DNA of 32,847 bases from Natronospirales bacterium (GCA_020201335.1 JAIVGZ010000010.1:1-32847), one strand, 5' to 3'. Positions 2,587-18,940 are shown, counted from the stretch's first letter. Translations and numbers: made by a program. The notes: generated from the letters alone by a model not told the origin.

Positions 2587-3737
2587 GCATCCTGGAAACG
2601 GCATTCTGGCTCGCAGCAATCCTCCTCGCTTACACCTACGCGGGCTACCCGCTGCTGGTCGGCGTGTGGAGCAGATGGCGGCCGCGGCCAACGCGGCTAC
2701 GCCCGTTCACACCGAGCGTCAGCATCGTGGTCGTCGCCTGTAACGAGGCCGACTGCATACGCCAAAAGGTCGACAACCTGCTCGCCCTCGACTATCCGGC
2801 TGAACATTGTGAAGTGATTATCGCGTCGGACGGCTCAGATGACCGCACGGTGGCGCGGGTGGAGAGCTGCAGCTCTAAGCGCGTGCATGTAATCGATTTC
2901 AGGCAACGACGTGGCAAGACCGCAGTGCTGAACGACGTGATACCCCGGGCGCACGGCGACATCGTCGTGTTGGCTGATGCGCGCCAGCGATTCGACCCAC
3001 ACGCACTGCGCGCGCTGGTTTCCCATTTCGCGGACCCGACGGTCGGCGCGGTCGGCGGCGAGTTGGTATTGGTAGACACGCACGCACACGGCGCAGAGCT
3101 GGGACAGGGCGTCGGCGCGTACTGGCGTTACGAGAAGTTCATCCGTCGCCACGAGAGTCGGGTTGATTCCACCGTAGGCGTGAGCGGCGCAATCTATGCG
3201 ATCCGCCGGGAGCTATTCTCGCCGCTGCCGCCGGACATCATCCTCGACGATGTCCTGATACCGATGCGCATCGTGCGGCAAGGGTATCGCGTGCTATTCG
3301 AAGCGCAAGCACGCGCGTACGACCGCACGGCACCGACTGCGCAGGCCGAGTTCCGGCGCAAAGTCCGCACGCTCGCCGGAAACTTCCAACTGTTTCTGCA
3401 TGAGCCGTGGCTGCTGTCGCCGCGTGCCAACAGGGTGTGGTTGCAGACCATCTCGCACAAGGCGCTGCGCCTGCTGGCGCCGCCATTGCTCGCCGTCGTC
3501 TTCGTCACCAGCGCCGCGCTTGCGTGGCGCCTGCCGTACGCGGTGCTGTTCGCCGCCCAAGTTGTATTTTACGCGGCAGCCGCGCTCGGCTTCCGGCTGC
3601 GTAACCGCGCCAGTAAGCCAATCTTTTTCAATGTTCCCTACACATTCTGTGTCTTGAACTGGGCGACTGTCGTCGGCCTGGTGCGCTGGGCAACCGGCAA
3701 GCAGAGCGTGATGTGGCAGACCAACAACGTGAGGTGA
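2583..3737 (+). CDS. family 2 glycosyltransferase, membrane-bound
   Basis: About 384 residues; the start at 2583 overlaps the previous stop (ATGA). A single N-terminal membrane helix (residues 5-28) precedes a GT-A catalytic domain with PSVSIVVVACNEAD, the nucleotide-binding SDGSDD (Asp83 region), the metal-binding ADARQ (Asp132) and a LDD acid/base region (222-223). The processive-synthase QxxRW box is replaced by EFRRKVRTLAGN near 257-267. Two or three C-terminal hydrophobic segments (about 285-375) anchor it in the inner membrane. It probably transfers an activated sugar during polymer or lipid-linked oligosaccharide synthesis. It is shorter than Alg8 and lacks that family's full transmembrane array, so it should not be called alginate synthase. 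Donor and acceptor are unknown. Confidence 0.88.
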   Translation: MSILETAFWLAAILLAYTYAGYPLLVGVWSRWRPRPTRLRPFTPSVSIVVVACNEADCIRQKVDNLLALDYPAEHCEVIIASDGSDDRTVARVESCSSKRVHVIDFRQRRGKTAVLNDVIPRAHGDIVVLADARQRFDPHALRALVSHFADPTVGAVGGELVLVDTHAHGAELGQGVGAYWRYEKFIRRHESRVDSTVGVSGAIYAIRRELFSPLPPDIILDDVLIPMRIVRQGYRVLFEAQARAYDRTAPTAQAEFRRKVRTLAGNFQLFLHEPWLLSPRANRVWLQTISHKALRLLAPPLLAVVFVTSAALAWRLPYAVLFAAQVVFYAAAALGFRLRNRASKPIFFNVPYTFCVLNWATVVGLVRWATGKQSVMWQTNNVR

Positions 3738-3741
3738 AATT

Positions 3742-4734
3742 ATGAAATGCCTGGTTACCGGAGGCGCGGGCTTTATTGGATCGCACCTGGTTCATGGACT
3801 TTTAAAACGCGGACACGAGGTCCGGGTGCTCGACAACTTCGTCAGTGGAAAGCGGCAGAATGTGCAGCACCTGCCGATTGACCTGGTTGAGGGCGACATC
3901 AGGGACCACAAGGACTTACAGGGGGCGCTGCGCGGCGCACAGCACGTATACCACCTCGCGGCGCTTGGATCCGTTGCGCGCTCGGTCGAGGACCCACTCA
4001 GCACGCATTCGGTCAACGAGACCGGTACGCTGATGGTGCTCGACGGCGCACAGAAGGCCAAGGCGCAGCGGGTGGTGCTCGCGTCGTCCTCGTCGGTCTA
4101 CGGCAACATCCCGACGCTGCCAAAGCGGGAGAGCGCGAAGCCGGCGCCGGCATCACCATACGCGGTATCAAAACTAACCGGCGAGTATTACTGCAACGTT
4201 TTCTGGAACACGTACGACCTCGAGACCGTCTGCCTGCGTTACTTCAACGTATTCGGGCCACGGCAGGACCCGGAATCAGAATACGCGGCGGTCATTCCGC
4301 GTTTCATCCAGGCGCTCCTCGCGGGCGAAAACCCGGTCATCTACGGCGACGGCACGCAGACGCGCGACTTCACCTATGTGGCCAACGTCGTCGAGGCGAC
4401 GATGCAGGCGATGCACACGCCGAAGGCTGCTGGGCAGATTGCGAACATCGCGTGCGGTGAGCGCTGGAGCCTGCTCGAGCTGGTCAAGTTGTTGGGGCAG
4501 GTGTTCGATATCCACGTTACGCCGGAGTTTCGCGATGAGCGGGTCGGTGACGTTAAGCACTCGCAGGCGGCAATCATTCGTGCGCAGCGCGTGCTCGGGT
4601 ACGCGCCACGCATCAGCTTCCAGCGCGGTCTGAGAGAGACGGTCGAGTGGTTCCGCTACATGCACCAGGAAATGGTCGAACGGCAACCGGCAAGGCGCGT
4701 GGACATTCCTGTCGCGCGGCCGGCGGCGATGTAA
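3742..4734 (+). CDS. NAD-dependent sugar epimerase (SDR, WbpP/GalE-like)
   Basis: About 330 residues. GAGGTG at 3731-3736 overlaps the previous stop and serves as ribosome site 5 bases before the ATG. It is an extended short-chain dehydrogenase. The Rossmann glycine motif TGGAGFIGSH is at residues 6-15, followed by the SSSSVYG loop (115-121) and the catalytic YxxxK at Tyr140/Lys144. Later come RYFNVFGPRQDP and YGDGTQTRDFTYV. The GSVARSVEDP segment and RQDP loop resemble WbpP-type UDP-N-acetylglucosamine 4-epimerases more than classical GalE; this is a comparison from memory. It would supply a nucleotide sugar for the polymer made by this operon. Substrate preference (UDP-GlcNAc, UDP-Glc or UDP-uronate) cannot be settled from sequence alone. 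Confidence 0.88.
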   Translation: MKCLVTGGAGFIGSHLVHGLLKRGHEVRVLDNFVSGKRQNVQHLPIDLVEGDIRDHKDLQGALRGAQHVYHLAALGSVARSVEDPLSTHSVNETGTLMVLDGAQKAKAQRVVLASSSSVYGNIPTLPKRESAKPAPASPYAVSKLTGEYYCNVFWNTYDLETVCLRYFNVFGPRQDPESEYAAVIPRFIQALLAGENPVIYGDGTQTRDFTYVANVVEATMQAMHTPKAAGQIANIACGERWSLLELVKLLGQVFDIHVTPEFRDERVGDVKHSQAAIIRAQRVLGYAPRISFQRGLRETVEWFRYMHQEMVERQPARRVDIPVARPAAM

Positions 4735-4743: not shown

Positions 4744-6231
4744 ATGCCGACCGTACGGGAATCCGAGCCGATGGCACCCACATCACGATTGCTGCGAGCA
4801 TGGCGAGAGGGTGGCTTGCGGCTGGTCGTCAGCCGCGGCGCGCATGCCGCGCTTGCACCCTGGGCCGCGTTCGGCTTTGTCGAATTCTTCGTGCGAAATC
4901 TCGGCGATGTCGATGCCGACCGTCCGCGGCCAGATGGCGTGGTCGTCGAAGAAGCATCCGCGGATGCTGCGGGGCTGCTCCTGATGGGACGCGAGCAGCC
5001 CGATGTGGTCGCGCGAGAAATCCGGCGGCGGTTCAAACGCGGAGACCGCTGCATTGTCGCGCGCAATTCGGATGGCAGGTATTTGCACAGCCGCTGGATA
5101 TCCACGCACCCGACGCTGGTGCCCGAGCTCGACCGCTGCATTGTTCCAGGGGCCGGGCAGGTGTACATGTACGACGGCTACACCCGCACCGAGGCGCGCG
5201 GCCGTGGCGTCGACAGCGCTGTTCGTGCGTACATCTTCGGCACGGCGCGTGGAGCGGGCTTCCGCGAGGTCGTATCGTACGTCCGTGCGACGAACACCGT
5301 TGGCTTGAATGCCGCAACCAAATGGCAGGCATCCACTGGCCGTGCCCACTACCTCCGGGTTCGACGCGCCCGACCATGGGTTCTCGCGGACCACCAGTTG
5401 CGCCGACGGATCACGCTGATCGGGACTGCTACGGCAGCTGAACTCGAAGCAGAGCGTCGTGCACGCACGGTTGCGCTGAAGGAATGGTTCAGCAGTTGGC
5501 TCGCCGAACCGATGGACAAGCGCTCGACTGGATTTTCCGCACTCCCCGCCGAGTATTTCGCGTCAGCCGGAGCGCACATCGTTTCAACGCTGGAGGTCAG
5601 TGAGCGCGACAAGGTGCTGGATGTCGGTTGCAGCAGCGGTGGTATCAGCCGCCACGTGGCACCTGCAGCGCGCAAGTTTGTGGGCGTCGATATGACGGCG
5701 GGGCTCATCACCGATATCGAACCTGATTCCATTCGCACCGCGACGGGCGCCGCCGCGGAGTTTGCCGTCGCCGATGGTCGGGCGCTGCCTTTCCCTCACG
5801 GCTCTTTCGACAAAGTGTTCTGCACCGGCGTGATACACATGCTTCCGACGCATGATGACGCGTTGCAGATGATTTGTGAGCTGGTCCGCGTCTGCCAGCC
5901 TGGCGGCACCGTACTCGTCGGCGCCATTCCAGACGCCGCGAAGCGCCGCCAGGAGTATAGATTGCTGTGGCGGCGCGCGAACCCGGCCGGGAAGGCACGG
6001 CTCGCGGCTGCGTTACTGGTACCGCGTTCGGTAAAGCGAATCGTTCGGCGCGTGCTGCAGCAAGCCCGAAACGAGGTCGTGTTTCTCAAGTTCGACCTCG
6101 AGCTGATGCAAGAATATTTTTCGGAGCAAGGTCTGCTCGCCGAGGTGGTGGATTACCCGGACGATTACTGGAGCGAGGATTTCCGTACGACCCGGTCGTG
6201 CCTGCGACTGCGCGTGCCCGCCTCGGCCTGA
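4744..6231 (+). CDS. fusion of GNAT-like acetyltransferase and class I SAM methyltransferase
   Basis: About 495 residues; AAGGGGA at 4733-4739 precedes the ATG. Residues 65-205 look like a GNAT domain: a short beta segment YMYDGYTRTE, the acetyl-CoA pyrophosphate loop RTEARGRGV (148-156), and a VRATNTVGLNAATKW motif typical of the last GNAT strand and helix. Residues 285-400 are a class I methyltransferase: motif I VLDVGCSSGG (291-300), acidic VGVDM (314-318), and the post-motif regions FPHGSFDKVFCTGVIHML and CQPGGTVLVGAIP. The C-terminal 90 residues are basic and of unknown role. The position in the operon suggests that it decorates the sugar (acyl plus methyl transfer) or its polymer. Both active-site loops look intact, so a bifunctional enzyme is plausible, but neither substrate is known. 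Confidence 0.8.
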   Translation: MPTVRESEPMAPTSRLLRAWREGGLRLVVSRGAHAALAPWAAFGFVEFFVRNLGDVDADRPRPDGVVVEEASADAAGLLLMGREQPDVVAREIRRRFKRGDRCIVARNSDGRYLHSRWISTHPTLVPELDRCIVPGAGQVYMYDGYTRTEARGRGVDSAVRAYIFGTARGAGFREVVSYVRATNTVGLNAATKWQASTGRAHYLRVRRARPWVLADHQLRRRITLIGTATAAELEAERRARTVALKEWFSSWLAEPMDKRSTGFSALPAEYFASAGAHIVSTLEVSERDKVLDVGCSSGGISRHVAPAARKFVGVDMTAGLITDIEPDSIRTATGAAAEFAVADGRALPFPHGSFDKVFCTGVIHMLPTHDDALQMICELVRVCQPGGTVLVGAIPDAAKRRQEYRLLWRRANPAGKARLAAALLVPRSVKRIVRRVLQQARNEVVFLKFDLELMQEYFSEQGLLAEVVDYPDDYWSEDFRTTRSCLRLRVPASA

Positions 6232-6239: not shown

Positions 6240-6800
6240 ATGCACGCGCGCGAGCTGGAACATGACTGGCGTCTTGCGCTCGCTGCGCGGATGGCGCTGG
6301 GCCCGGGCGACCTGGTGGTGCGGGTCGGTGAAGGCTTCGGGGCGTTCAATGATGAGATCGAGTTGTGCGTTGGCCTGGCGGGTACCGTCGCTGTGGTCGA
6401 CCCACGCGATGCATTGGATGACTGCCTCGAGCATGACGTCCGCCCGGTGCTGGTTACCGTTGCGGCGGGTGGTCACGAGAGCGATGCACTGGCAAGGGCG
6501 AGGCGTACGCTGCTTCGCTGGCGTCCGGTCGTATTCACTGTCGCCGACCCCGAGGCCACGCTGAATGCCGGCTCGACTTTATACGAACAACAACGGATTC
6601 TGCGCTCCGCTGGTTATGTCGTGCGCGCGGTCTGGCGGTTCGGGTTGCGCCGGCCTGACACGAGCATCTATGCGGACGCGTGCCACTGGATCGCCGCGCC
6701 GTGTGAGCACAACGAAATGCTGACGCGTATCTCGTCTCGGATTCTTTGGAGCCAGTTGCTGCCGTGGCAAGCGGTCAGCTCGCAGTCGCGCGCAGCGTGA
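6240..6800 (+). CDS. small methyltransferase-like (FkbM-like) protein
   Basis: About 186 residues. The ATG at 6240, 8 bases after the previous stop, is preferred; the same frame is open upstream but lies inside the preceding methyltransferase gene, and a GTG at 6198 is the only nearby rival. No clear Shine-Dalgarno is seen, so translation is probably coupled. LVVRVGEGFGAFNDEIELCVG resembles a degenerate SAM-binding glycine loop, followed by an acidic VVDPRDA. The later arrangement (a core strand VVFTVADPE, then a helix and ILRSAGYVVRAVWRFG) recalls FkbM-type sugar O-methyltransferases. The match is weak. It ends the exopolysaccharide operon and overlaps the 3' end of the convergent membrane-protein gene by 26 bases. 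Confidence 0.6.
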   Translation: MHARELEHDWRLALAARMALGPGDLVVRVGEGFGAFNDEIELCVGLAGTVAVVDPRDALDDCLEHDVRPVLVTVAAGGHESDALARARRTLLRWRPVVFTVADPEATLNAGSTLYEQQRILRSAGYVVRAVWRFGLRRPDTSIYADACHWIAAPCEHNEMLTRISSRILWSQLLPWQAVSSQSRAA

Positions 6801-7458
6801 CCAGGTATTTGAGTAGCGTGTAGCCAAACAGCAGCGCACCCACCAGTTCGAGCGTCTCGCCGGTAAGCCAGATCAACAGATAGGTCGGGTCGGGACCATG
6901 GGCCGAATAATACGATCCCTGCACCATTTCCATGCCTAGCGCACCGGACACGAAGAGCACGCCAGACGCGGCGATGCGGACGCGGTACCAAGGCACAAAC
7001 GCAAGCAAGAAACGCCAGTACACGCGCGCGAACACCAGCACGAATAGACCGTAGAGAAGGACCCACGGGAAGAACAGGACCCCAGTAGTCGAGAACGCAT
7101 CGCGCAGCGGAGCATTCATAAGCTCGTGCAGGCCCGCTGCCTCGTCGACCGCCAGGGCCGCGAAAATCAGGGCGAGCGCTTGCCAATGCCGGTGCCATTG
7201 ATGGAGGCCTTGTCGCTGCCGCGTCCGCGCGACGGCGGCCGCCACGGTCCCGCAGCCGAACAAAAGCAAACCGCTGAAGAAGGTCGGTATATTTCCTTCG
7301 ACCCGGAGGTCGAGTGCAGGAATGAGCCCCAGAACATTATCGTGACCGGTGAGGCCGGTCATGATGTCACCGCCGACCGAGGTCACGACGAACAGGGTCG
7401 CAAACGCGCACGCGGTCCAGACGACGCGGCGCGCCCAACCTGGCAGAGCTTCTTTCAC
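6775..7458 (-). CDS. multipass inner-membrane protein of unknown function
   Basis: About 227 residues with six or seven hydrophobic segments (roughly 12-32, 58-76, 90-106, 126-146, 150-178, 200-220 and a short one between). Two acidic motifs lie in or beside membrane helices: AVDEAAGLHE near 103-112 and GETLELVGA near 201-209. Conserved Asp-Glu...His-Glu and Glu...Glu pairs of this kind suggest a metal site or a proton-coupled transporter, but I do not recognise the family. The gene starts 24 bases after the stop of the first lipoprotein gene on the same strand, so the two are probably cotranscribed. Confidence 0.7.
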   Translation of the reverse strand: MKEALPGWARRVVWTACAFATLFVVTSVGGDIMTGLTGHDNVLGLIPALDLRVEGNIPTFFSGLLLFGCGTVAAAVARTRQRQGLHQWHRHWQALALIFAALAVDEAAGLHELMNAPLRDAFSTTGVLFFPWVLLYGLFVLVFARVYWRFLLAFVPWYRVRIAASGVLFVSGALGMEMVQGSYYSAHGPDPTYLLIWLTGETLELVGALLFGYTLLKYLVTLRATAS

Positions 7459-7482: not shown

Positions 7483-9105
7483 TCATTCGTATAGCTTATG
7501 GAACGGTACCTTGACGATGAAGGCGTCGACCCGGTTTCCGCCCATGTTGCTGGTCCAGATGAAGTATTGGCCGGTGATGTCGACGTTACCCTTCGGCATC
7601 CTGCTATAGCTGTCGCCGCCGCCCGTCGCGCCCTGGTCGGTCATTACTGGCGCGACCACCAGCGTATTGTTGTTCGCCCCATCCAGCAGGAAGCAGATCA
7701 CCTCGTTGGCGTGCACCGCAGTCTTGGAACTGGCTGCACTGCCGCACATGTACTGCTCGGTGGCAGGGGCGTCGGCGCGTGCATGCACAAAGCTCGCGTG
7801 AGCGGGGGCCATCGCTTGCCAATGGTTGTTGCGGTACACAATCCTGCCGTCGAGCGTCGGGTCGTTGAAGTCCCATAGCCTCCAGGCATTCGCCGGGCCC
7901 CAGTTGTCCGCGGCGACCATCACGCCATAGCCCATGTCCGAATGCCCGCCAGCGCCATCTTCGTCTGCCAGAACGCGCTCGGCGTTCCCGTTCTGCAGGT
8001 CGATGAAGCGGTTATCCATTCCGTTCACGCCATCGACCTGTTCCTTGATGACCAGCCAGCGACCGCTGCGGTCGATCTGGCACTCGTCGAAGCTTCCCTG
8101 GCGTGCGAAGTAGCGGAACTCCTGGGTGTCCTCGAGGTATACGAAGCAGCCGAGTTCAGAGTAATCGCTCGAACGCCGTACGGTCGCCGAATGCACGCGG
8201 TCATCGTTGCTCGTGTGCATCTGCCAGATGTAGTGGCCGCTACCGAAGTGGCTGACGGCGTCGAATACCGTCTCATGGGTCTTCGTGATGACGTCGAAAC
8301 GCACGAGCTTCGAGCCGTCCCTGATGTAGAGGATGTTGGGTAGCGACGGGCTGAAGTACCACATCTCCCCGGTGCCGGCCGCGAAACTGCTGCCGGCCGG
8401 GAACAGCGGGCCGGCGTTCGACACTTCCTCGGTAATCTTGTTGTAGCGGAACAGCGTCGGGCCGTTCCCGCCACGGCTCGCGTTCATGCCGAGGAAAATC
8501 AGCATCTCGTCGTCGTTGACGTGGTAGTTCGTGTTACGCCAGTACGAGTAGCCAACCGGGTACACGCAGTCCTGGCCGCCGCAGTCATCGGCGTTCGTGA
8601 TGCGCGCGCCGCGGGTGTTGTACGGTGCCGGGAAATTGAACGCGCCACGGCTCGGCAGGAACGCGGAGACTTGGCCCTCGCTCAAAGGAGCTCGCGCAGT
8701 GGCGGTGACGCTGTCCTCGACGAAGCCGCCGGGGGCTGTTGGTGCAGGCGGAGGTGTCGGGTCGGGTTCCGGCTCCGGGTCTGGCGTCGGATCCGGGGTG
8801 GGATCCGGGGTGGGATCCGGGGTGGGATCCGGTTCGGGGTCCGGCGTAGGATCCGGTTCAGGGTCCGGTTCAGGGTCCGGTGTCGGGGTCGGGCTCGGTT
8901 CAGGCTCGGGCTCCGGCGGCGGTGCGTGTCCCGGTGGGGTGATGGATGGCCCGCGCCCACTGCCTGAGGTGTTACCCGGCGGCGCCGGGTCGGCTGTTTC
9001 CGCCGCACTTGCGGTGGAATCGCTGCCTGAGAGGCAGCCCTGGATGCCCAGCAAGAGAGCGGTGGCCAGCGCGATGCGCGCGGCAACTGTGTATGCGTGT
9101 GTCAT
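7483..9105 (-). CDS. lipoprotein paralog 1 with DP/EP-rich linker and conserved beta-rich domain
   Basis: About 540 residues. A lipoprotein signal ends at Cys24 (IQGC). Residues 60-125 are almost pure Pro/Asp/Glu/Thr, a long, negatively charged, extended linker. The rest is a roughly 410-residue domain shared with the two upstream paralogs. Shared marks in order are FPAPY, RITN, DDCGGQDC, SYWRNTN, FLGMN, RGG-GPTLF-YNKITEE, VRFDVITKT, HSATVRRSSDY, DECQIDRSGRWLVIKEQ, GAGGHSDMGYG, HANEVICFLL, VMTDQGA-GGGDSYSRMPKGN and the terminal IWTSNMGG-R-DAF-VKVP. The last resembles the closing strand of a beta-propeller, so a propeller fold is an inference. Residue +2 is Leu, which favours the outer membrane by the Lol rule. 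Function is unknown; a surface or periplasmic role in the polymer system is a guess. Confidence 0.85.
   Translation of the reverse strand: MTHAYTVAARIALATALLLGIQGCLSGSDSTASAAETADPAPPGNTSGSGRGPSITPPGHAPPPEPEPEPSPTPTPDPEPDPEPDPTPDPEPDPTPDPTPDPTPDPTPDPEPEPDPTPPPAPTAPGGFVEDSVTATARAPLSEGQVSAFLPSRGAFNFPAPYNTRGARITNADDCGGQDCVYPVGYSYWRNTNYHVNDDEMLIFLGMNASRGGNGPTLFRYNKITEEVSNAGPLFPAGSSFAAGTGEMWYFSPSLPNILYIRDGSKLVRFDVITKTHETVFDAVSHFGSGHYIWQMHTSNDDRVHSATVRRSSDYSELGCFVYLEDTQEFRYFARQGSFDECQIDRSGRWLVIKEQVDGVNGMDNRFIDLQNGNAERVLADEDGAGGHSDMGYGVMVAADNWGPANAWRLWDFNDPTLDGRIVYRNNHWQAMAPAHASFVHARADAPATEQYMCGSAASSKTAVHANEVICFLLDGANNNTLVVAPVMTDQGATGGGDSYSRMPKGNVDITGQYFIWTSNMGGNRVDAFIVKVPFHKLYE
8757..8923 (-). repeat. 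in-gene low-complexity repeat encoding the DP-rich linker
   Basis: Short tandem repeats inside lipoprotein paralog 1. A perfect 12-base unit, ggatccggggtg, occurs in register at 8789, 8801 and 8813, with a fourth copy starting at 8825 that breaks down in its second half. Flanking units are degenerate. Unit length is a multiple of three, so expansion or contraction keeps the frame and changes only linker length. Confidence 0.9.
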
Positions 9106-9200
9106 TGTCAGACCCCCAAAAATCTATGCGCGCTCAGGTGTTTTCCCTAACGCATGGACGGAACATACCGGAGCAACGCGAACGCGAACCGACGGTTAAT

Positions 9201-9224
9201 GCACGATTGTGTAAACAATCGTGC
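9201..9224 (-). terminator. 10-bp perfect stem-loop between lipoprotein genes 1 and 2
   Basis: GCACGATTGT (9201-9210), a 4-base loop and the exact complement ACAATCGTGC (9215-9224). It lies 61-84 bases past the stop of lipoprotein paralog 2 in the direction of transcription. The base run after it on the minus strand (ATTAACC) is not T-rich, so it is a weak intrinsic terminator at best and could instead be an operator or mRNA-stability hairpin. The GCACGAT core is the same as in the strong terminator at 10955-10985. Confidence 0.4.
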
Positions 9225-9284
9225 GAATGTGACCGCGGTCTCGAATTCCGTGACTGTCGGACGCCGTGTGTCTCCACGAGACGA

Positions 9285-10823
9285 CTAACGACGCAGTTGC
9301 TGCGCCGGTACCCTCACCAGGAACGCGTCCTGGCGGTTTCCCCCCATGTTCGTGGTCCAGATGTAGTACTGGCCGGTCACATCAAGGTTGCCTTTCGGCA
9401 TTTTGCTGTAGCTGTCACCACCACCCGAAGCGCCCATGTCCGTCATCACCGGGGCTACCACGAGGGTGTCGTTGGACCCACCTCCTAACAGGAAGCAGAT
9501 GACCTCGTTCGCGTGTACCGCGGTCTTCGAACTCGCGACGCTGCCGCACGCGTACTGGTCGCTGAGTGGCGTGTCCTCGCGGGCATTTGCGAAACTGACG
9601 TGGTTCGGAGCCGGTGCCTGCCAGTGGTCATTGAAATAGACATAGCTGCCGTCGAGCGTCGGGTGGTTGAAATCCCAGATCCGCCACGCATTCGGCTTCG
9701 ACCAGTTATCGGCCGCCACCATCACGCCGTACCCCATGTCGGAATGGCCGCCGGCACCGTCCTCGTCGAACAGAACGCGTTCGCTGCCGCTGGCGAGGTC
9801 GATGATCCGATTGTCCGAGCTGTTGCGGCCCGAAACGTTTTCCTTGATGACCAGCCAGCGGCCGCTGCGATCAATCTGGCACTCGTCGTATGAGCCTTGC
9901 TTCGGGAAAAAGCGGAAGCTTCGGCTGTCCTCGAAATAGACCATGCACCCCAGGTCAGCGTAGTCGCTCGAGCGCCGCAGCGTCGCTGAGTGCACCCGGT
10001 CGTCGTTGCTCGAGTGCGGCTGCCACATGTAATGGCCGCTGCCGAACTCGGTCGTGACGTCGAACACGGTTTCCGTGGTTTTCGTGATTACGTCGAAGCG
10101 TACGAGCTTGCTGTTGTCGCGCACGTACAATGCGTTCGGGAGCATCGCGCTGAAGTACCACTGTTCGCCACTCATGTTGCGGAAGCTGGTGCCCTCGGGG
10201 AACAGCGGGCCCACCTTGCGTATTTCCTCGGTGATCTTGTTGTATTCGAATAGCGTCGGACCGGTACCACCGCGTTGGTTGTTGAGTCCGAGGAAGATCA
10301 GCATCGTGTCGTCATGGACGTGGTTGTTGGTGTTTCGCCAGTACGAATATCCGACCGATGCCACGCAGTCCTGGCCGCCGCAATCGCCTTCGTTCGTGAT
10401 ACGCACGCCGCGCGTGCCGTACGGGGCAGGGAAGGTGAATGCGCCGCGGGACGGCAGGAACGCCTGGATGTCGCTTTGCGCCAGTCGGCTGCGTGCGGTA
10501 GCGGTCACACTGTTCTCGATGAAGCCACCAATCTCCGCAGGCGGCTGCGGCACGGGTGCCGGGACAGGGACTGGTGCCGGAGCTGGCGCAGGCGCAGGCG
10601 CCGGAGTTGGCGCAGGGGCCGGTGCCGGAGTTGGCGCAGGGGCCGGTGCCGGAGCGGGAGTCGGTGCAGGGGCACCGGGGATCTGTACGCTACCTCCGGT
10701 TCCGGACGGGCTGGTCGGGGCAGGGCTCGGCGCGCTGGAGCTGCCGCCGCCGCAGGCCTGAAGCGCCAGTGCGAGGATGCCGGCCACGGCCAGGCGTTGG
10801 AATCTCGAATCGTTGTTTGTCAT
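9285..10823 (-). CDS. lipoprotein paralog 2 with AP-rich linker
   Basis: About 512 residues from the ATG at 10823; an in-frame GTG at 10829 is an alternative start. GGAG at 10835-10838 lies 11 bases from the ATG and 5 from the GTG, so the choice is open. A signal peptide ends in the lipobox LQAC (Cys24), followed by a Gly/Ser stretch and then an Ala-Pro repeat linker (about residues 50-90). The C-terminal domain is collinear with paralogs 1 and 3 and keeps CGGQDC, RSGRWLVIKE, GAGGHSDMGYG, HANEVICFLL and the terminal IWTTNMGGNRQDAF motif. The linker differs from paralog 1 (uncharged AP units instead of acidic DP units) while the domain is conserved, as expected if only length and extension of the linker matter. 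Function unknown. Confidence 0.85.
   Translation of the reverse strand: MTNNDSRFQRLAVAGILALALQACGGGSSSAPSPAPTSPSGTGGSVQIPGAPAPTPAPAPAPAPTPAPAPAPTPAPAPAPAPAPVPVPAPVPQPPAEIGGFIENSVTATARSRLAQSDIQAFLPSRGAFTFPAPYGTRGVRITNEGDCGGQDCVASVGYSYWRNTNNHVHDDTMLIFLGLNNQRGGTGPTLFEYNKITEEIRKVGPLFPEGTSFRNMSGEQWYFSAMLPNALYVRDNSKLVRFDVITKTTETVFDVTTEFGSGHYMWQPHSSNDDRVHSATLRRSSDYADLGCMVYFEDSRSFRFFPKQGSYDECQIDRSGRWLVIKENVSGRNSSDNRIIDLASGSERVLFDEDGAGGHSDMGYGVMVAADNWSKPNAWRIWDFNHPTLDGSYVYFNDHWQAPAPNHVSFANAREDTPLSDQYACGSVASSKTAVHANEVICFLLGGGSNDTLVVAPVMTDMGASGGGDSYSKMPKGNLDVTGQYYIWTTNMGGNRQDAFLVRVPAQQLRR
10600..10647 (-). repeat. 24-bp tandem duplication in the AP linker
   Basis: Two perfect 24-base copies (10600-10623 and 10624-10647) inside lipoprotein paralog 2, encoding part of the Ala-Pro linker, surrounded by degenerate copies. 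This is in-frame expansion of the linker. Confidence 0.85.
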
Positions 10824-10855
10824 GGTCACCGTATCTCCGTGTCGTTGCGGCCGGT

Positions 10856-10882
10856 AGGTGATTCACCTGAAGGTGTTTCACG
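10856..10882 (-). promoter_or_regulatory. overlapping inverted repeats upstream of lipoprotein paralog 2
   Basis: AGGTGATTCACCT (10856-10868) is a perfect palindrome around one base. It runs into a second inverted repeat, CACCTGAAGGTG (10664 family numbering aside, 10864-10875), and a third half-site GTGTTTCAC. The alternating AGGTG/CACCT half-sites lie 33-59 bases upstream of the start, between it and the promoter-like block at 10895-10927. That is a usual place for a repressor or for a 5'-UTR structure. No protein can be assigned. Confidence 0.4.
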
Positions 10883-10894
10883 GGGCCGACGACA

Positions 10895-10927
10895 GGAAGA
10901 TATTGGCGTCGTGTAACGATTCGTTAA
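10895..10927 (-). promoter_or_regulatory. conserved promoter-like block of lipoprotein paralog 2
   Basis: Read on the minus strand, this is TTAA-N4-TCGTTACACG-N7-TATCTTCC. The same elements with identical spacing occur upstream of paralog 3 at 12539-12571, although the intervening bases differ. It lies 72 bases before the start codon. TATCTT could serve as a -10 element, but no good -35 is found at normal spacing, so an activator-dependent or alternative-sigma promoter is possible. Confidence 0.55.
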
Positions 10928-10943
10928 CGGGTTTTAAACGAGG

Positions 10944-10985
10944 GTCAAAAAAATGCCCCGCACGATGCAAAAAATCGTGCGGGGC
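10944..10985 (-). terminator. strong intrinsic terminator of lipoprotein paralog 3
   Basis: GCCCCGCACGAT (10955-10966), a 7-base A-rich loop and the perfect complement ending at 10985 form a 12-bp GC-rich stem. On the minus strand it is followed at once by A and seven T (10947-10954). It begins 38 bases past the stop of the gene ending at 11023. This is a textbook rho-independent terminator and shows that paralogs 3 and 2 are separate transcription units. Confidence 0.9.
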
Positions 10986-11022
10986 GGAAATCAGCCGGTC
11001 AGTTGTCTCCGGAGGGCGACGC

Positions 11023-12504
11023 CTAGCGACCGGTGAGCTGCGCCGAGGGAACCTTGACGATGAATGCGTCTATTCGGCTGCCACCCATGTTCGAGGTCCA
11101 GATGTAGTACCGGCCGGTGACATCCAGGTTACCTTTCGGCATGCGCGAATAGTTGTCGCCGCCGCCGGAAGCCCCGTGGTCAGTCATCGTCGGTGCAACG
11201 ACCAGCGTTTCGTTCGACCCGTTGAGCATGAAGCACACGATTTCGTTGGTGTGCACTGCGGTTTGGGAACTGGCCGAGCCGCCGCATGCGTACTGCTCGC
11301 TGAGCGGCACGTCGGAACGTGCGTTCGCGAAGCTGACGTGCGCCGGCGCCATGCCGTCGTAGTGCCCGTTGAAGTAAACGGCAGTACCGGCAAGTGCGGA
11401 CGCGGCGTAATCCCACACCTTCCACACGGTGCCACGGTCGTCCCAGTCGTCTGCGGCGACCATGCTGCCGTAACCCATGTCCGAATGCCCACCGGCACCG
11501 TCCTCGTCGAGCAGGATGCGCTCGGCGCCGGTATGGAGGTCGATGATGCGATTGTCCATGCCGTTGTTGCCGTCAACCTGTTCCTTGATCACGAGCCAGC
11601 GGCCGCTCTTGTCGACCTGGCACTCGTCGTACGAGCCCTGGCGCTCGAAATACGTAAAGGCCCCGGTGTTCTCGTTGTACACAACGCAGCCCAGCTCCTT
11701 GTAGCTGCTCGTGCTGCGGAGCGTCGCCGAGTGTACGCGGTCGTCGTTGCTCGAGTGCACCTGCCAGATCTCGTGGCCAGCACCGAACTCGGTGGTCGCA
11801 TCGAAAACCGGCTCCAAAGTTTTGGTGATGACGTCATAGCGCACCAGCTGTGCGCCGTCGCGGATGTATAGCGTATTCGGCATCTGGGCGCTGAAGTACC
11901 AGCCTTCGGCGGTCGCGTTGCGGAACTTGCTGTCCGCGCCGAACAGCGGGCCGACCTTCGACAGCGCGTCGGTGGTCTTGTTGTAGCTGAACAGCGTTGG
12001 ACCTTCGCCGCCGCGCGACGGATCGAGACGCAGGAAGATCAGCATCGTGTCGTCGTGCACGTGGTTGTTGATATTCCGCCAGTACGCATAGCCGACCGGC
12101 GCTACGCAGTCGAATTCACCCCCGCAGTCACTCGCATTCGTGATGCGGACGCCGGTGGTTCCGTATGGCGCCGGAAAGGTGAAAGGGCCGCGTTCCGGTA
12201 GAAAGCCGGCGATGTCCGCTTGCGCAAGCCGCGGTCGCGGATTCGCCAGCACCGGGCTCTCGATGAAACCTCCGGGTGCGTTCGAGCTTGTGGACGGTGT
12301 GGGTGCCGGTGCGGGAGCAGGAGCAGGAGCAGGAGCTGGTGCGGGTGCCGTGGGCGTCGTGCTCGACGGCGGCGCCGGTTCGGGTTGCGCGGGCTTGCTC
12401 GGTGCGCCGCCGGAGCCGCCGCCGCAGGCCTGCAGGCCGACGGTTATTGCGAAGACCAGCAGGAGGCGGGTTGTGACTGCGGTAAAGCGGTTACGCTCGA
12501 TCAT
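11023..12504 (-). CDS. lipoprotein paralog 3 with short AP linker
   Basis: About 493 residues. The ATG at 12504 has GAGGTGAC just upstream (AGGTG spaced 5 bases). The lipobox is LQAC at Cys27, followed by a Gly/Ser/Pro stretch and a short Ala-Pro repeat (about residues 52-68). The conserved domain matches paralogs 1 and 2: FPAPYGTTGVRITNASDCGG, AYWRNINNHVHDDTMLIFL, RGGEGPTLFSYNKTTD, VRYDVITKT, DECQVDKSGRWLVIKEQVDG-NGMDNR, GAGGHSDMGYG, HTNEIVCFML and a terminal IWTSNMGGSRIDAF. It differs where the others have CGGQDC (here CGGEFDC, one residue longer). Its own terminator and the shared upstream block indicate a monocistronic unit. Function unknown. Confidence 0.85.
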   Translation of the reverse strand: MIERNRFTAVTTRLLLVFAITVGLQACGGGSGGAPSKPAQPEPAPPSSTTPTAPAPAPAPAPAPAPAPTPSTSSNAPGGFIESPVLANPRPRLAQADIAGFLPERGPFTFPAPYGTTGVRITNASDCGGEFDCVAPVGYAYWRNINNHVHDDTMLIFLRLDPSRGGEGPTLFSYNKTTDALSKVGPLFGADSKFRNATAEGWYFSAQMPNTLYIRDGAQLVRYDVITKTLEPVFDATTEFGAGHEIWQVHSSNDDRVHSATLRSTSSYKELGCVVYNENTGAFTYFERQGSYDECQVDKSGRWLVIKEQVDGNNGMDNRIIDLHTGAERILLDEDGAGGHSDMGYGSMVAADDWDDRGTVWKVWDYAASALAGTAVYFNGHYDGMAPAHVSFANARSDVPLSEQYACGGSASSQTAVHTNEIVCFMLNGSNETLVVAPTMTDHGASGGGDNYSRMPKGNLDVTGRYYIWTSNMGGSRIDAFIVKVPSAQLTGR

Positions 12505-12627: not shown

Positions 12628-13272
12628 TTAGGGGGTGATCATGTGCCGGCGGATCGCGTAGCGCGTCAGCCCGGCGGTGCCGCGGATATCGAGCTTTTGC
12701 ATCAGCCGGTTGCGATGGGATTCGACGGTCTTCGGGCTGAGCGTGAGGATGCGCGCGATGACGCGCGTGGTCTTGCCTTCAGCGATCATCCTTAGCACTT
12801 CTCGTTCCCGCGCGGTAAGCGGGTCGGCGGCCATCTTCGCGCCGCTCGCGTACGCCGCGATCGCGGCCTGGGTCATGCCGCCACTGACATGTATCGCGCC
12901 GTGCGCCACTTCCTGGACCGTCGTCACCAGCTCGGAGGCGGGCTGGGACTTCTGTAGGTAGCCGTGCATGCCGGCCCGTAATGCCTCGAGCGCGAGCGAT
13001 TCGTCTTCATGCATGGTCAGCAGTACGGTCTGAGTCTTCGGGGATACTTCGTGGATTTTGCGTGCTGCGTCGATGCCGTTGAGATTCGGCATACCGAAGT
13101 CGAGTACGGTCACGTCTGGGGTGAAGGTCTGCGTCATCTGCACGGCTTCTTCACCGTCGGATGCTTCGCCGACGACATCGATGCCTTCGCGCTGCATCAG
13201 CGCACGCAGCGCTTGGCGGAAAATCTTGTGGTCGTCCGCCAACACGACGCGCACGGTGTCCCCCTGGACCAT
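12628..13272 (-). CDS. NarL/FixJ-family response regulator
   Basis: About 214 residues from the ATG at 13272. A TTG at 13296, or a GTG at 13254 preceded by a G-rich run, are possible alternative starts. The receiver domain is complete: acidic pair Asp13/Asp14 in LADDHKIFRQ, phosphoacceptor Asp58 in TVLDFGMPN, switch region LLTMHEDES and Lys108 in GYLQKSQ. A LuxR-type helix-turn-helix follows (about 148-214; LTAREREVLRMIAEGKTTRVIARILTLS-KTVESHRNRLMQKL). It is related to, but clearly diverged from, the regulator 36 bases upstream. With the kinase at 14488-15420 it probably forms an output of the stressosome block. The lipoprotein genes, which lie next downstream, are candidate targets by proximity only. 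Confidence 0.9.
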   Translation of the reverse strand: MVQGDTVRVVLADDHKIFRQALRALMQREGIDVVGEASDGEEAVQMTQTFTPDVTVLDFGMPNLNGIDAARKIHEVSPKTQTVLLTMHEDESLALEALRAGMHGYLQKSQPASELVTTVQEVAHGAIHVSGGMTQAAIAAYASGAKMAADPLTAREREVLRMIAEGKTTRVIARILTLSPKTVESHRNRLMQKLDIRGTAGLTRYAIRRHMITP

Positions 13273-13307
13273 GTCAGCAGGGACCCGCCGCCACAATGGG
13301 CGGACGG

Positions 13308-13937
13308 CTATGCTTTGATGAAGCCGCGACGGATCGCGTATCGGACAAGACTTGCTGTTTCATGGATCGCCAGTTTCTGCATCATTCGGGTGCGGTGTGA
13401 CTCGGCGGTTTTGACACTCACGCCGAGTAAAGCGGCGATCTCTTTGGTCGTATTCCCTTCGGCCACAAGCTGTAGTACCTGCCGTTCACGGTCTGTAAGC
13501 GGGTCGGGCGGCAGTTCCGACTTCGCCATGTAAGCATTGACCACTGCCTCGGAGATTCCCGGGCTGAGGTAAACGGCGCCGCGTAACACTTCGCGGATCG
13601 CCGCAAGGAGGTCGGATGCGGTTTGCGCCTTGAGCACATAGCCGCGAATTCCGGCGCGCAGCGCTTCCAGCACATACGCGTCATCCTCGTACATCGTCAG
13701 CAGTACGACCTGGGTCTTTGGCGCACGCTTGTGGATGTCGCGTGCTGCGTCGACGCCGTTCAACATCGGCATACCCAGGTCGAGTACCGCCACATTCGGG
13801 TTCAGCTTCCGTGCCAGACGCGCGGCTTCGTGTCCATCCGAGGCTTCCGCCACGACTTCGTATCCGTCACGCTCAAGTAGGCTGCGCAGGCCCTGCCGGA
13901 ACATCGGGTGGTCGTCTGCCAGCATTATGCGTTGCAT
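13308..13937 (-). CDS. NarL/FixJ-family response regulator, full length
   Basis: 209 residues, the normal length for the family. Receiver residues are intact: Asp8/Asp9 (LADDHPMFRQ), phosphoacceptor Asp53 (AVLDLGMP) and the Lys in GYVLKAQ. The LuxR HTH covers about 143-209 (LTDRERQVLQLVAEGNTTKEIAALLGVSVKTAESHRTRMMQKL). Its last 133 residues align without gaps to the shortened gene at 14080-14487, with about seven differences. It sits 142 bases downstream of that gene and so may have its own promoter. It is the likely phosphorylation partner of the adjacent HisKA_3 kinase. Confidence 0.92.
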   Translation of the reverse strand: MQRIMLADDHPMFRQGLRSLLERDGYEVVAEASDGHEAARLARKLNPNVAVLDLGMPMLNGVDAARDIHKRAPKTQVVLLTMYEDDAYVLEALRAGIRGYVLKAQTASDLLAAIREVLRGAVYLSPGISEAVVNAYMAKSELPPDPLTDRERQVLQLVAEGNTTKEIAALLGVSVKTAESHRTRMMQKLAIHETASLVRYAIRRGFIKA

Positions 13938-14038
13938 ATCGGATTCCGTTTCTGTGTGTCCATTGAGGTCTAATATCGCAGGTGAGAAGAGGATGCGATA
14001 TCAATGAAATTCCTGATAATCACGCAGCTAAACCCTTA

Positions 14039-14052
14039 GCCGCGAACGCGGC
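14039..14052 (-). terminator. short GC hairpin after the shortened regulator
   Basis: GCCGCGAACGCGGC is a 5-bp stem with a tetraloop. On the minus strand it is followed by TAAGGGTTTAG, only mildly T-rich. It lies 28 bases past the stop at 14080. It is a possible weak terminator or attenuator in the 142-base gap before the next regulator gene. Confidence 0.3.
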
Positions 14053-14079
14053 AGAGTCCCTAGAGTGCGATAGCGGACG

Positions 14080-14487
14080 CTAAGCCTTGATGAAGCCCCG
14101 GCGAATCGCGTATCGGACCAAGCTGGCGGTCTCATGGATGGCGAGTTTCTGCATCATCCGGGTGCGGTGGGATTCGGCGGTTTTCACGCTGACGCCGAGG
14201 ATTTGGGCGATCTGTTTCGTGGTATTGCCTTCGGCGACCAGCTGCAAAACCTGGCGCTCGCGGTCGGTAAGAGGGTCCGGTGGCAGTTCGGTCTTCGCCA
14301 TGTAGGCGTTGATGACCGCTTCAGAGATGCCGGGGCTCAGGTAAACGGCGCCGCGCAGCACCTCACGGATCGCGGCGATGAGGTCAGACGCGGCCTGGGC
14401 TTTCAGCACATAGCCACGTATTCCTGCGCGCAGCGCCTCGAGCACGTACGCATCGTCCTCGTACATCGTGAGCAGGACCACCTGCAT
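14080..14487 (-). CDS. shortened NarL-type regulator lacking the N-terminal receiver half
   Basis: 135 residues. The ATG (14485-14487) follows the kinase stop without a gap (TAAATG), so it is translationally coupled. It lacks exactly 74 residues relative to the 209-residue paralog at 13308-13937: the acidic pair and the phosphoacceptor Asp53 are absent. The second half of the receiver (VVLLTMYEDDAYVLEALRAG on to the Lys of GYVLKAQ) and the whole LuxR HTH remain. Protein identity in the shared part is about 95% by eye. The DNA has diverged more (11 mismatches in one 79-base stretch aligned by eye, none changing the protein), which points to selection on the protein rather than decay. It may act as a phosphorylation-independent DNA-binding or heterodimerising regulator, or it may be a recently broken gene. 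Confidence 0.8.
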   Translation of the reverse strand: MQVVLLTMYEDDAYVLEALRAGIRGYVLKAQAASDLIAAIREVLRGAVYLSPGISEAVINAYMAKTELPPDPLTDRERQVLQLVAEGNTTKQIAQILGVSVKTAESHRTRMMQKLAIHETASLVRYAIRRGFIKA

Positions 14488-15420
14488 TTACCAGTCCCTC
14501 GCAAGTGGAATTGTGAGGTGGAGCTGAGTGCCCTTGCCGGGGGCGGACTTGATTTCGAGCGAGCCGTGTAGCGCACCCACACGCTCCTGAATGCCGAGCA
14601 GGCCGAGGCCGCGCGGGCGCCCATCGCTGCTGAGTGGGTCGAACCCGACACCGTCATCCTTGATCGTGCAATGAATCACGCCTTTGCGCGTCCAGACGCG
14701 CACTTGCACGCTGGTGGCTTGCGCATGCCGGACGATGTTGTTCAGCGCTTCCTGTACGCCACGGTAAATCGCCGTCTCGAGCGGTTGTGCGTAGCGCTCT
14801 CGGACTGAGCCCGACACTGTCACGTCCAGTTTCGCTCGCTTGCGGAAGCCGTCGCCGAGGAACTGCAATGCGGGCAACAGGCCCAATTGGTCGAGGATCG
14901 GCGGCCGCAACTCGTGTGACAGATGCCGCAGTTGCTCGCGCACGGTATCCAGGTGCGAGGTGATGCGCGTCACGCCTTCGCTCACGTGCTCAGGCGCATC
15001 GCGCGTTAGCTGTGACAGTTCCAGATACACGGTCGCAAGCAGCTGCGCGGCCTCGTCGTGCAAGGTATGGGCGATGCGGCGCGCCTCTTCTTCGAGGATG
15101 TGGTTCAGACGCCGAAGTGCGGCATTCGATTCGCGGTTGCCCATCTGCAGGACTTCGAACGGCGACAGGCTTTCGACCAGGAAGCGACCGGCTGCGGTCA
15201 GGCGCTTTGCGAGCGTCCGCTCGTCGACGGGATGACCCGCTATAGCGGCGACGGTTGCGAGTTGGTGCACGTTCACGAGCTCAAGCAGCCCCTTGCCACC
15301 GGCAAGCGCCGCGCGCCCAAGCTCGTACGCCTCATGCAGCGCTGTCTCGCCGCCGCTATCCAGGTATTCGCATAGCGCCTGCTGATATCGGTCGAGTAGG
15401 TCGGTGGCGGTTGTGTCCAT
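14488..15420 (-). CDS. NarX/DegS-type histidine kinase with RsbU_N-like N-terminal domain
   Basis: About 310 residues from the ATG at 15420, which lies 4 bases after the stop of the phosphatase gene; the upstream open frame belongs to that gene. No membrane segment is seen, so it is cytosolic. Residues 1-92 (DLLDRYQQALCEYL, ETALHEAYELGRAAL, NVHQLA, FLVESLSPFEV) match the pattern of the RsbU N-terminal domain, which in Bacillus subtilis binds the RsbT kinase. A short coiled coil (95-112) leads to a HisKA_3 dimerisation domain with His121 in HTLHDEAAQLL. The HATPase domain has the N-box QEALNNIVRHAQ and glycine boxes KDDGVGFDP and GLGLLGIQERV. The architecture and position suggest that free RsbT docks on the N-terminal domain and switches the kinase on. 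Confidence 0.88.
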   Translation of the reverse strand: MDTTATDLLDRYQQALCEYLDSGGETALHEAYELGRAALAGGKGLLELVNVHQLATVAAIAGHPVDERTLAKRLTAAGRFLVESLSPFEVLQMGNRESNAALRRLNHILEEEARRIAHTLHDEAAQLLATVYLELSQLTRDAPEHVSEGVTRITSHLDTVREQLRHLSHELRPPILDQLGLLPALQFLGDGFRKRAKLDVTVSGSVRERYAQPLETAIYRGVQEALNNIVRHAQATSVQVRVWTRKGVIHCTIKDDGVGFDPLSSDGRPRGLGLLGIQERVGALHGSLEIKSAPGKGTQLHLTIPLARDW

Positions 15421-15424
15421 TCGC

Positions 15425-16036
15425 TCAACCGAGGTACCTGATGACGAAGACCAGTGCATCATCGGACTGGGTGCTGTGGGTGGCAAGCAGCGTCTCGGCA
15501 ATCTGCTCGACTTGCTCGCCGGTATCGATGCTTTTTACGAAGCCCGGGTCGACCCCGTCGGTGGCGAGTACCAGCACGTCGCCTCGATTGATGTTTACTG
15601 ACGCGGTTTGCAGCCGCGGCAGCCGCTGATCGCCAATCAATCCGGGCCGTTGCAGCAGGGTCTCGTGAGGGTGCTGTGGTGAAGGCACCCTGCGTTGGAT
15701 TCGCCCGGCGACATTGCCGATACCGAGCCATGTCACCGAATGGTCCTCGGCATTGAACGCCGCAAGCGCCATCGCGACGCCACGCGTGCCGCGCAGCGCC
15801 TCGTCGCAACGACTCGCCAGCTCTGGCAGCGTTTCGGATTTGTATTGCTCGACCATCGCCAGCGCCTGGGTGGCGACTTCAGCCGCTTCTTCGCCGTGGC
15901 CGATGCCGTCGACCACCGCGACCAGCATCCCCTCTGGTATGTCCGCAACGAAGTATTTGTCGCCGCAAACGGTCTGCCCGGCCACCGTGAGGGACGCCGA
16001 AGCGCACTCCGCTGAGCGTGGTTTCAGGACAGCCAT
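15425..16036 (-). CDS. rsbX: RsbX-like PP2C/SpoIIE-family phosphatase
   Basis: About 203 residues. The single-domain phosphatase fold has the metal-binding aspartates in GDKYFVADIP (Asp26) and VVDGIGHGEEA (Asp43), then LGIGNVAG, GDVLVLATDGVDPGF and a final SDDALVFVIRYL. In known stressosomes RsbX removes phosphate from RsbS and RsbR to reset the complex. The length is near that of Bacillus RsbX and no sensor or RsbU-type N-terminal domain is present, so it fits the feedback phosphatase rather than an activator. The start overlaps the rsbT end by 13 bases. Confidence 0.88.
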   Translation of the reverse strand: MAVLKPRSAECASASLTVAGQTVCGDKYFVADIPEGMLVAVVDGIGHGEEAAEVATQALAMVEQYKSETLPELASRCDEALRGTRGVAMALAAFNAEDHSVTWLGIGNVAGRIQRRVPSPQHPHETLLQRPGLIGDQRLPRLQTASVNINRGDVLVLATDGVDPGFVKSIDTGEQVEQIAETLLATHSTQSDDALVFVIRYLG

Positions 16037-16479
16037 TTCTTTGCCGTGATGGTCGTGCCACGACCAATTTTGGTATCGATGTGCAATTCGTCGACCATGC
16101 GCTGGACGCCGCAGAGGCCGAGCCCGAGGCCGCCGGAGGTCGAATAGCCGCCGACAATGGCGCGTTGCACATCCGGGATTCCGGGGCCTTCGTCGTGGCT
16201 GATGATGACGAGCCCGCGTTTGCCGGACTTGGTGCTGGCCTCCAATCGGATTTCCCCGTGCTGCGCATAGAGCACGACGTTGCGCGAGAGCTCGGAAATG
16301 ATCGTCGCAATAAGCGTCGATTCCGTTTCCGAGAAACCGAGGCGCAGCGCCATCTCCCGTCCCCGCTGGCGCGCAGTGACGATATCCGCTACGGCATCGA
16401 TTGCGATGGTGGCTGTTTCGTTCAAATTCTTAGCCAGGCCACTTGCCATACGGGGAAGGGCCTCGGCTCCCCTAGTCAT
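16024..16479 (-). CDS. rsbT: RsbT-like serine/threonine switch kinase
   Basis: About 151 residues, a GHKL-fold ATPase. The N-box is SELSRNVVLYA (Glu63, Asn67), the G1 box is HDEGPGIPD (Asp96), the GYSTSGGLGLGLCGVQRMVDE lid is next, and the C-terminal GTTITAKKW is typical of RsbT. It phosphorylates the STAS proteins RsbS and RsbR in the stressosome and is then released to activate an output partner. The first 20 residues extend beyond the Bacillus protein; Met11 is a possible alternative start, but the ATG at 16479 overlaps the rsbS stop (ATGA) and is preferred. Confidence 0.93.
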   Translation of the reverse strand: MTRGAEALPRMASGLAKNLNETATIAIDAVADIVTARQRGREMALRLGFSETESTLIATIISELSRNVVLYAQHGEIRLEASTKSGKRGLVIISHDEGPGIPDVQRAIVGGYSTSGGLGLGLCGVQRMVDELHIDTKIGRGTTITAKKWLS

Positions 16480-16850
16480 CGTAGTCGGGTGTGGTTTCTT
16501 TTCGGTCTGTTGTCGAAGTAGGCGAGGCCTTCCTCGAGGTCCAGCGCGGTCGGAACCCCCTCCAAACTGAGTCCGAGCTGCACCATCGAGAACGCCACCT
16601 CGGGCTGGATGCCGACGATGACGGTGTCTGCGCCCCGGAGCCGGATCATGTGCGCCATGTCGCGCAGCGTCCGCACCGAGAACGAATCCATCACGTCGAG
16701 ACCGGTGACATCGAGGATGACGCCGATCGAGCGGTAGTAGCCCACTTGCTCGACAAGGCGATCCCGGAGGACCACCAAGTCGCGGTCAGTGAGTACAGCC
16801 TGAACCGATGCGATCAGGTAATCGCGTTGTTTGAGAACAGGTACGTCCAT
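16476..16850 (-). CDS. rsbS: RsbS-like STAS-domain stressosome scaffold
   Basis: About 124 residues, a single STAS domain. The phosphorylatable serine is present: DVTGLDVMDSFSVRTL, with Ser56 in the place of the known RsbS phosphoserine. The later VIVGIQPEVAFSMVQLG strand-helix is also typical. RsbS forms the icosahedral core with RsbR and holds RsbT until phosphorylated. The gene begins 2 bases after the rsbR stop and overlaps rsbT. Confidence 0.93.
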   Translation of the reverse strand: MDVPVLKQRDYLIASVQAVLTDRDLVVLRDRLVEQVGYYRSIGVILDVTGLDVMDSFSVRTLRDMAHMIRLRGADTVIVGIQPEVAFSMVQLGLSLEGVPTALDLEEGLAYFDNRPKRNHTRLR

Positions 16851-16852
16851 GC

Positions 16853-17770: not shown

Positions 17771-17933
17771 TCAGTGTTCCTCCATACCCCCACCGCGCAA
17801 CGGCAGGGCCGTTCCGCGGTAATACTAAACCGAAAATCAATGGCTTGCATTTCGCCAAACCACGGCTTTCCAGCGTTGATGCTGCGTAAAACCACTGTAG
17901 TGAGGGAGGCGATGGTGTGGATATCAGGTAAAC

Positions 17934-17957
17934 ACCCTAAATTAAGGACCTTAGGGT
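17934..17957 (-). terminator. inverted repeat after the PhoB-type regulator
   Basis: ACCCTAA (17934-17940), a 10-base loop and TTAGGGT (17951-17957) lie 18-41 bases past the stop of the gene at 17975. The loop can form an alternative AAGG/CCTT pairing. The following minus-strand bases are GTTTACC. It is either a weak terminator or an operator in the 204-base gap ahead of rsbR; the rest of that gap shows only the rsbR ribosome site. Confidence 0.4.
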
Positions 17958-17974
17958 ATTTAGCGGCGTCGAGG

Positions 17975-18727: not shown

Positions 18728-18940
18728 GCACGGGCCTTGTTTTCATCGAGTAGTTGCAACAATAGAGCACGCGCCCTGCAAGCAAAACCCGGTGAACCCT
18801 TGAAGTTCATGCGGCAAACAACTGACTCTGCGAAGATTTCGGGAACCTTTAGAGCGAATAGCGAGAATTCAACCTATGTCGCGCCGGCCCCCGGTACTGG
18901 AAGATTTGTCTTAACGATGACGAGGTTTGGAGAAGGTGCG
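18728..18940. other. divergent intergenic region between the PhoB-type regulator and manC
   Basis: 213 bases that must carry promoters for both directions. The start site of manC is marked by GGAGAAGG at 18929-18936. I could not place a convincing sigma-70 or AlgU/sigma-E promoter: a GGGAACC at 18839-18845 resembles an extracytoplasmic sigma -35, but no matching -10 occurs at proper spacing. No palindrome stands out. Confidence 0.5.

Follow-up and report, generated by a model that had tools for sequence, protein, structure and literature searches.

What does a lipoprotein domain do that occurs three times in tandem beside a polysaccharide locus and belongs to no described family? The question is raised by a 32,847-nucleotide stretch from a Natronospirales bacterium (GCA_020201335.1 JAIVGZ010000010.1:1-32847), here called the window, in which three adjacent genes, A, B and C, lie between exopolysaccharide (EPS) genes and a stressosome-like module. 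With a probability of about 0.45, we propose that the domain is an exported propeller serving a non-canonical mannuronate-type EPS locus, lipid-tethered so as to engage the cell's own polymer, and that it is a carbohydrate-active enzyme (CAZyme), most likely a metal-independent lyase. The broader claim, that the protein acts on or binds the polymer of the locus, is probable; the polymer chemistry, surface exposure and catalysis we infer. The genes are:

11023–12504, minus strand: propeller lipoprotein A, 493 amino acids (aa); domain 11026–12276; neutral AP linker at about 12277–12399
9285–10829, minus strand: propeller lipoprotein B, 514 aa; domain 9288–10544; neutral AP linker at about 10539–10697
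7483–9105, minus strand: propeller lipoprotein C, 540 aa; domain 7486–8733; acidic DP/EP linker at about 8731–8925

A sequence-only reading of this DNA had described a tandem triplet of lipoprotein genes with one shared domain, and the open reading frames (ORFs), the lipoboxes and the domain identities bear this out. The common C-terminal domain spans about 417 residues, with 66–69% identity to the first copy and 73% between the remaining two. As read from the sequence, a lipobox ends the signal peptide in all three proteins (GIQGC in C, LQACGGG in A and B), and no Asp stands at +2 after the lipobox Cys (IQGCL, LQACG, LQACG), as is expected of bacterial lipoproteins; the export and surface-type anchoring claimed earlier agree with these signals. 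Gene B starts at GTG, with an alternative ATG three codons in. Among the motifs first listed as common to the triplet, SGRWLVIKE and GAGGHSDMGYG are present in all three proteins, whereas two vary in one copy each: the terminal IWTSNMGG reads IWTTNMGG in the middle gene, B, and CGG-DC, which is CGGQDC in two proteins, is CGGEFDC in the remaining one. In a tree of 21 relatives, A, B and C form one group (support 100/98) with B and C as sisters, which indicates duplication within this lineage. No fourth copy was found in the genome, an assembly of 1.83 Mb that is about 85% complete.

The linkers are indeed of unlike chemistry, acidic in one protein and neutral in two. To call them swapped was too strong: they are low-complexity segments that merely differ, and AP or DP/EP/PQ linkers also occur in relatives (L021, L023, L024), placed there after the domain. 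The linker-encoding DNA is a tandem repeat in two of the three genes, and we read the charge difference as probable ordinary drift of repetitive DNA, with no functional swap. Matches to the SslE and PARP families were rejected as due only to the low complexity of signal and linker, and the apparent relatives L007–L010, L012 and L013 as signal or linker similarity only. The bacterial relatives start with a signal peptide and, unlike the window genes, have no lipobox; in L015 a Gly-rich, anchor-like C-terminal tail takes the place of the lipid anchor. The lipid anchor and N-terminal linker thus appear to be particular to the window lineage.

No Pfam, NCBIfam or PHROG family matches the domain, which the sequence-only reading had likewise been unable to assign, and PDB sequences gave nothing of note. 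An AlphaFold2 model built from a 20-sequence alignment (predicted local distance difference test (pLDDT) 93.2, predicted template-modelling score (pTM) 0.92) consists almost wholly of strands and predicts the all-beta propeller that had been anticipated; the strand count and the comparison below suggest seven blades. The top Foldseek matches in the PDB are the oligogalacturonate lyases (Ogl) 3c5m (E 6e-14, TM 0.62/0.68) and 3pe7 (E 2e-13), of polysaccharide lyase family PL22 (PF14583). The next propeller follows at E 2e-9, roughly four orders of magnitude weaker, and TolB-type propellers are also among the fold matches. Ogl is thus the best structural match; it has the propeller fold, its last blade aligns with that of the domain, and it shares a substrate class, uronic-acid polymers. 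It differs in that our domain has no Pfam match, has other residues at the Mn site, and is exported with six invariant Cys. PL22 Ogl is cytoplasmic.

Conservation was assessed on 14 bacterial and 6 phage sequences, with residues numbered along the gene A domain (positions in the full protein are 76 higher). Invariant across bacteria and phages are R44, D50, E124, D217, E218, Q220, D241, N242, D257, D266, Y301 and D385, with little variation at H264, H313, H182, Y376 and K381. From these, H264, H313, Y376, K381, R44, D50, E124, D217, E218 and Q220 are our candidate functional residues. Cys 51, 57, 197, 219, 331 and 348 are present in 14/14 bacterial proteins, and the phage proteins retain C219 only. 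The obvious reading is an exported protein in an oxidising setting whose six Cys would be joined in three disulfides, in a pairing that we infer.

The relatives add further modules to the domain: Big_7 in 9 of 21, purple-phosphatase-type FN3 in seven, LamG in five and dockerin in three. A constant N-terminal domain with varied C-terminal LamG, Ig, FN3, dockerin or SPRY-like modules is a CAZyme-like architecture. Some relatives carry a second undescribed C-terminal domain of about 150 residues with the motif GCxGCxDA and no Pfam match. It is modelled as a ConA/SPRY-like sandwich (pLDDT 93.9), and among solved folds it comes closest to a glucanase, a PL7 alginate lyase and SPRY domains. It lies at:

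L018, 11849–12310: GCxGCxDA domain
L014, 12475–12936: GCxGCxDA domain (also present in L016, L021, L023 and L024)

Distant exported acidobacterial propellers, at 28–30% identity, were also seen (L099 4073–5161, L099 7549–8601 and L100 7142–8227); the one in L100 adjoins a GDP-mannose dehydrogenase-like gene (51%).

Which polymer would such a protein meet? Since the window spans contig C67 from end to end, the locus is missing its left part. What remains is:

2–1060, plus strand: GDP-mannose 6-dehydrogenase (GMD; AlgD-like), truncated by the contig start
928–2586, plus strand: beta-helix protein (ORF limits; true start probably downstream)
2508–3737, plus strand: GT2 glycosyltransferase, synthase-like (ORF limits)
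3742–4734, plus strand: NAD-dependent sugar epimerase, common to L014, L022, L024 and L056
4744–6231, plus strand: protein with a C-terminal S-adenosylmethionine (SAM) methyltransferase domain and an unassigned N-terminal half, in this locus only
6775–7458, minus strand: putative membrane protein, 227 aa, no family match
18656–21707, plus strand: GDP-mannose pyrophosphorylase/phosphomannose isomerase and phosphomannomutase, two ORFs for GDP-mannose supply

That the left side holds an AlgD-like locus, as first read, is upheld by comparison with the PDB: the window dehydrogenase scores 314 bits to the GMD 1mfz, its best match, against 167 for the best UDP-glucose dehydrogenase (UGD), and the locus dehydrogenase 423 bits to 1mfz against 251 for the best UGD. 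An alternative scheme, in which UDP-glucose dehydrogenase (so named by NCBIfam) and a 4-epimerase would yield a galacturonate polymer fitting PL22, was dropped because this comparison favours GMD.

In an all-against-all comparison of loci, the neighbours recur across phyla. The recurrent set comprises GMD, the beta-helix protein, GT2, GT4, an Asn-synthase-type amidotransferase and often a heparinase II/III protein, joined by the sugar epimerase in Gammaproteobacteria and L022; no homologue of the 4744–6231 or 6775–7458 product was found in the other loci compared. The propeller gene and the operon end converge in the window and in L014, L017, L018, L021, L023, L024, L054, L090, L091, L092 and L093; L095 departs from this order. 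L024 belongs to Litorivivens lipolytica, a cultured bacterium. The beta-helix profile has alginate lyases as its best PDB matches and does not match AlgG. No curated family scores above cut-off for this family, some genomes (G386, G400) hold several copies, and we regard it as a candidate uronan epimerase or lyase. The GT4 and amidotransferase fit TIGR03087 and TIGR03108 best, below the curated cut-offs (247/317 and 546/817 bits). An AlgE-type exporter (PF13372) occurs in 8/12 genomes, several of the matches being marginal, and lies outside the locus.

Two known systems come close. With the Pseudomonas alginate operon (AlgD, AlgG, AlgL) the locus shares a GMD, a beta-helix protein, a GT2 synthase-like enzyme, a lyase-like gene and, in the window, GDP-mannose supply genes nearby; unlike that operon it has an amidotransferase, a GT4 and a sugar epimerase, and an accessory propeller in place of the periplasmic AlgL. 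The XrtA/PEP-CTERM EPS loci supply the closest models for the GT4 and amidotransferase (TIGR03087, TIGR03108), but at scores under the curated cut-offs. Among the papers searched, none describing such a locus was found.

The domain is tied to this locus by distribution as well as by neighbourhood, as the sequence-only reading had expected. The beta-helix profile was found in 11/11 other domain-bearing genomes, and among 369 genomes of the class the window's genome is the only one in which either the domain or the beta-helix gene was found, and it has both. In an evenly drawn sample of 396 acidobacterial genomes, the beta-helix gene occurs in 42 and the domain in 15. The gene is present in 12/12 strong domain carriers (E under 1e-100) against 30/384 others, and absent from the three genomes with weak or partial domain matches. 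Fisher's test gives p = 4e-13 for the strong set and 4e-10 after removal of three seed genomes; because relatedness among the genomes breaks independence, these values are stronger than the evidence warrants, although the direction is clear.

The domain is also encoded, without an evident signal peptide, on seven IMG/VR contigs. Large-terminase, portal, capsid or head–tail genes lie near it in L028, L029, L032 and L033, which indicates real phage genomes. It was not found in 50,697 INPHARED phage records or in plasmid records. The viral sequences (L026–L033) form two separate clades, one of them very deep (L029–L031), and the L026–L028 proteins have a common C-terminal tail ending RRFxEV. The closest viral structure model, BFVD A0A8E5NQ64 (1172 aa), matches at E 2e-19, with TM 0.71 to the query and 16% identity. 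Propellers are a recognised depolymerase fold in phages, at 12% of the folds found (PMC11326577). Our domain resembles the n-bladed propeller depolymerases of that DepoScope set in its fold and in having homologues in phage structural-gene regions, and differs in lacking a sequence match among the phage records. The phage copies may serve as depolymerases or receptor-binding proteins.

Several results weigh against the proposed lyase, and we take them together with the readings that they would favour. The first concern PL22 itself, for which one PL22-like protein, from G389, was used in the comparison. Identity to PL22 is 10–12%; PF14583 does not match the domain at E 0.1 or 0.5 and found nothing in 114 class genomes and 149 acidobacterial genomes. 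An hhalign comparison gave a probability of 14% with one blade aligned, to a PL22 profile of three sequences only. In three MAFFT modes, Ogl Q350, H353 and H355, which we take to be Mn-site residues (their positions agree with the 3pe7 sequence), align to Y376, M379 (variable) and K381 (K or R); this mapping of the last blade rests on agreement of the three runs and has no E-value, and other blades are not mappable. The middle of the alignment is unreliable, slipping one blade around Ogl H242 and H287, presumably the catalytic His and a Mn ligand, so that H264 and H313 are by-eye candidates only. The fold match to PL22 therefore fails on sequence and on Mn-site residues, and no clear match to a known enzyme or transporter family emerged: by the tests made, the predicted domain resembles a PL22 lyase yet is no member.

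Further points of this kind come from the genomes. No locus genes lie near the propeller gene in L015, L019, L020, L096 and L098, and a second copy in G005 lies apart from the locus. Such scattered copies, with the common ancestry of the sampled genomes that makes the Fisher test overstate independence, are what one would expect if the domain had no tie to the polymer and its neighbourhood reflected hitch-hiking or common inheritance. That is already unlikely: the association repeats in Gammaproteobacteria, Acidobacteria and Rokubacteria with a recurring convergent order, and a locus gene is present in every strong carrier. The 30 acidobacterial genomes with the beta-helix gene and no domain also count against the proposed lyase, and make the propeller an accessory of the locus. 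A locus that can do without the propeller is hard to square with a component of polymer export or assembly, a TolB-like periplasmic scaffold that is not a surface protein. TolB-type fold matches and the gene's tie to a synthesis locus would suit such a role, which we nevertheless consider improbable given the separate, convergent transcription, the phage homologues beside virion genes, the long linkers and the lectin-type modules; nothing favours the earlier suggestion that the propeller protein exports polymer.

Finally, the carriers are already equipped with a second lyase-like gene: one of the heparinase II/III type is present in 12/12 genomes examined. A separate lyase family in every one of them would fit a non-catalytic, uronan-binding display protein, a lectin-like anchor whose three copies and linkers give reach and avidity. 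The loss of three PL22 Mn-site residues, the lectin-like or Ig-like partner modules and anchors that vary among relatives (lipid in the window, the Gly-rich tail in L015) point the same way, and this, the main alternative, is possible, if not the one we prefer; the strictly kept charged and His residues, phages included, exceed the needs of display. Four features all fit an enzyme and lead us to favour a depolymerase: a constant N-terminal domain whose lectin-like partners change, the closest solved folds, polar residues that stay fixed and the use by phages. Replacement of Mn-site residues by Tyr and Lys/Arg would fit a metal-independent lyase.

In the mechanism we envisage, GDP-mannuronate would first be made; the GT2 would then polymerise it and products of the locus would modify it, as the gene content of the locus suggests. 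The propeller would be exported and disulfide-bonded and, in the window lineage, lipid-anchored on a stiff Pro-rich linker. So tethered, at the cell surface or close to it, it would meet the uronic-acid polymer that the cell itself makes, which a metal-independent lyase could trim or release.

The regulatory neighbours of the triplet are as follows:

12628–13296, minus strand: LuxR-type response regulator, directly upstream of gene A
13308–18727, minus strand: second response regulator and stressosome-like module (HATPase/HisKA_3, SpoIIE, HATPase, STAS, STAS, OmpR-type regulator)

The stressosome placed here by the sequence-only reading is present on the window's right side (STAS/HATPase/SpoIIE, LuxR), but as a general link it holds for gammaproteobacterial loci only: LuxR-type regulators and the stressosome-like module are common to the window, L014 and L024. 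In the acidobacterial L093 a homologous LuxR-type regulator adjoins the propeller gene. Control of the propeller genes by the stressosome-like module is plausible. A partial copy of the 13308–13937 response regulator lies at 14080–14487 (minus strand), 94.8% identical over 134 aa, but its receiver domain lacks the N-terminal part; in L014 there are two copies, both full-length.

Between the propeller genes lie two hairpins, and no Rfam element was found in the window:

10955–10985, minus strand: hairpin and T-run between A and B, intrinsic-terminator-like, fold z-score -6.2
9201–9224, minus strand: perfect 10-bp inverted repeat between B and C, no T-run

Both have the stem core GCACGAT/ATCGTGC. 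Since the first hairpin is strong and a T-run comes after it, A and B are probably separate transcripts, and gene B probably has its own promoter.

Mannuronate-type exopolysaccharides are poorly mapped beyond Pseudomonas and Azotobacter. The domain marks an AlgD-type locus that recurs in three phyla, mostly in uncultured bacteria of soil and water, and offers a concrete candidate protein for binding or cutting the polymer of that locus. Its sharing with phages, together with disulfide-type Cys in the exported bacterial forms only, suggests that slime-making bacteria and their viruses have traded a tool for handling polysaccharide. Tentatively, we suggest that these proteins are a new family, either polyuronate lyases that need no metal or dedicated receptors. 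The family would accompany an uncharacterised mannuronate EPS system found in Acidobacteria, Rokubacteria and some Gammaproteobacteria, and occur in phages as well; if so, phages presumably use the domain against hosts coated in the same polymer.

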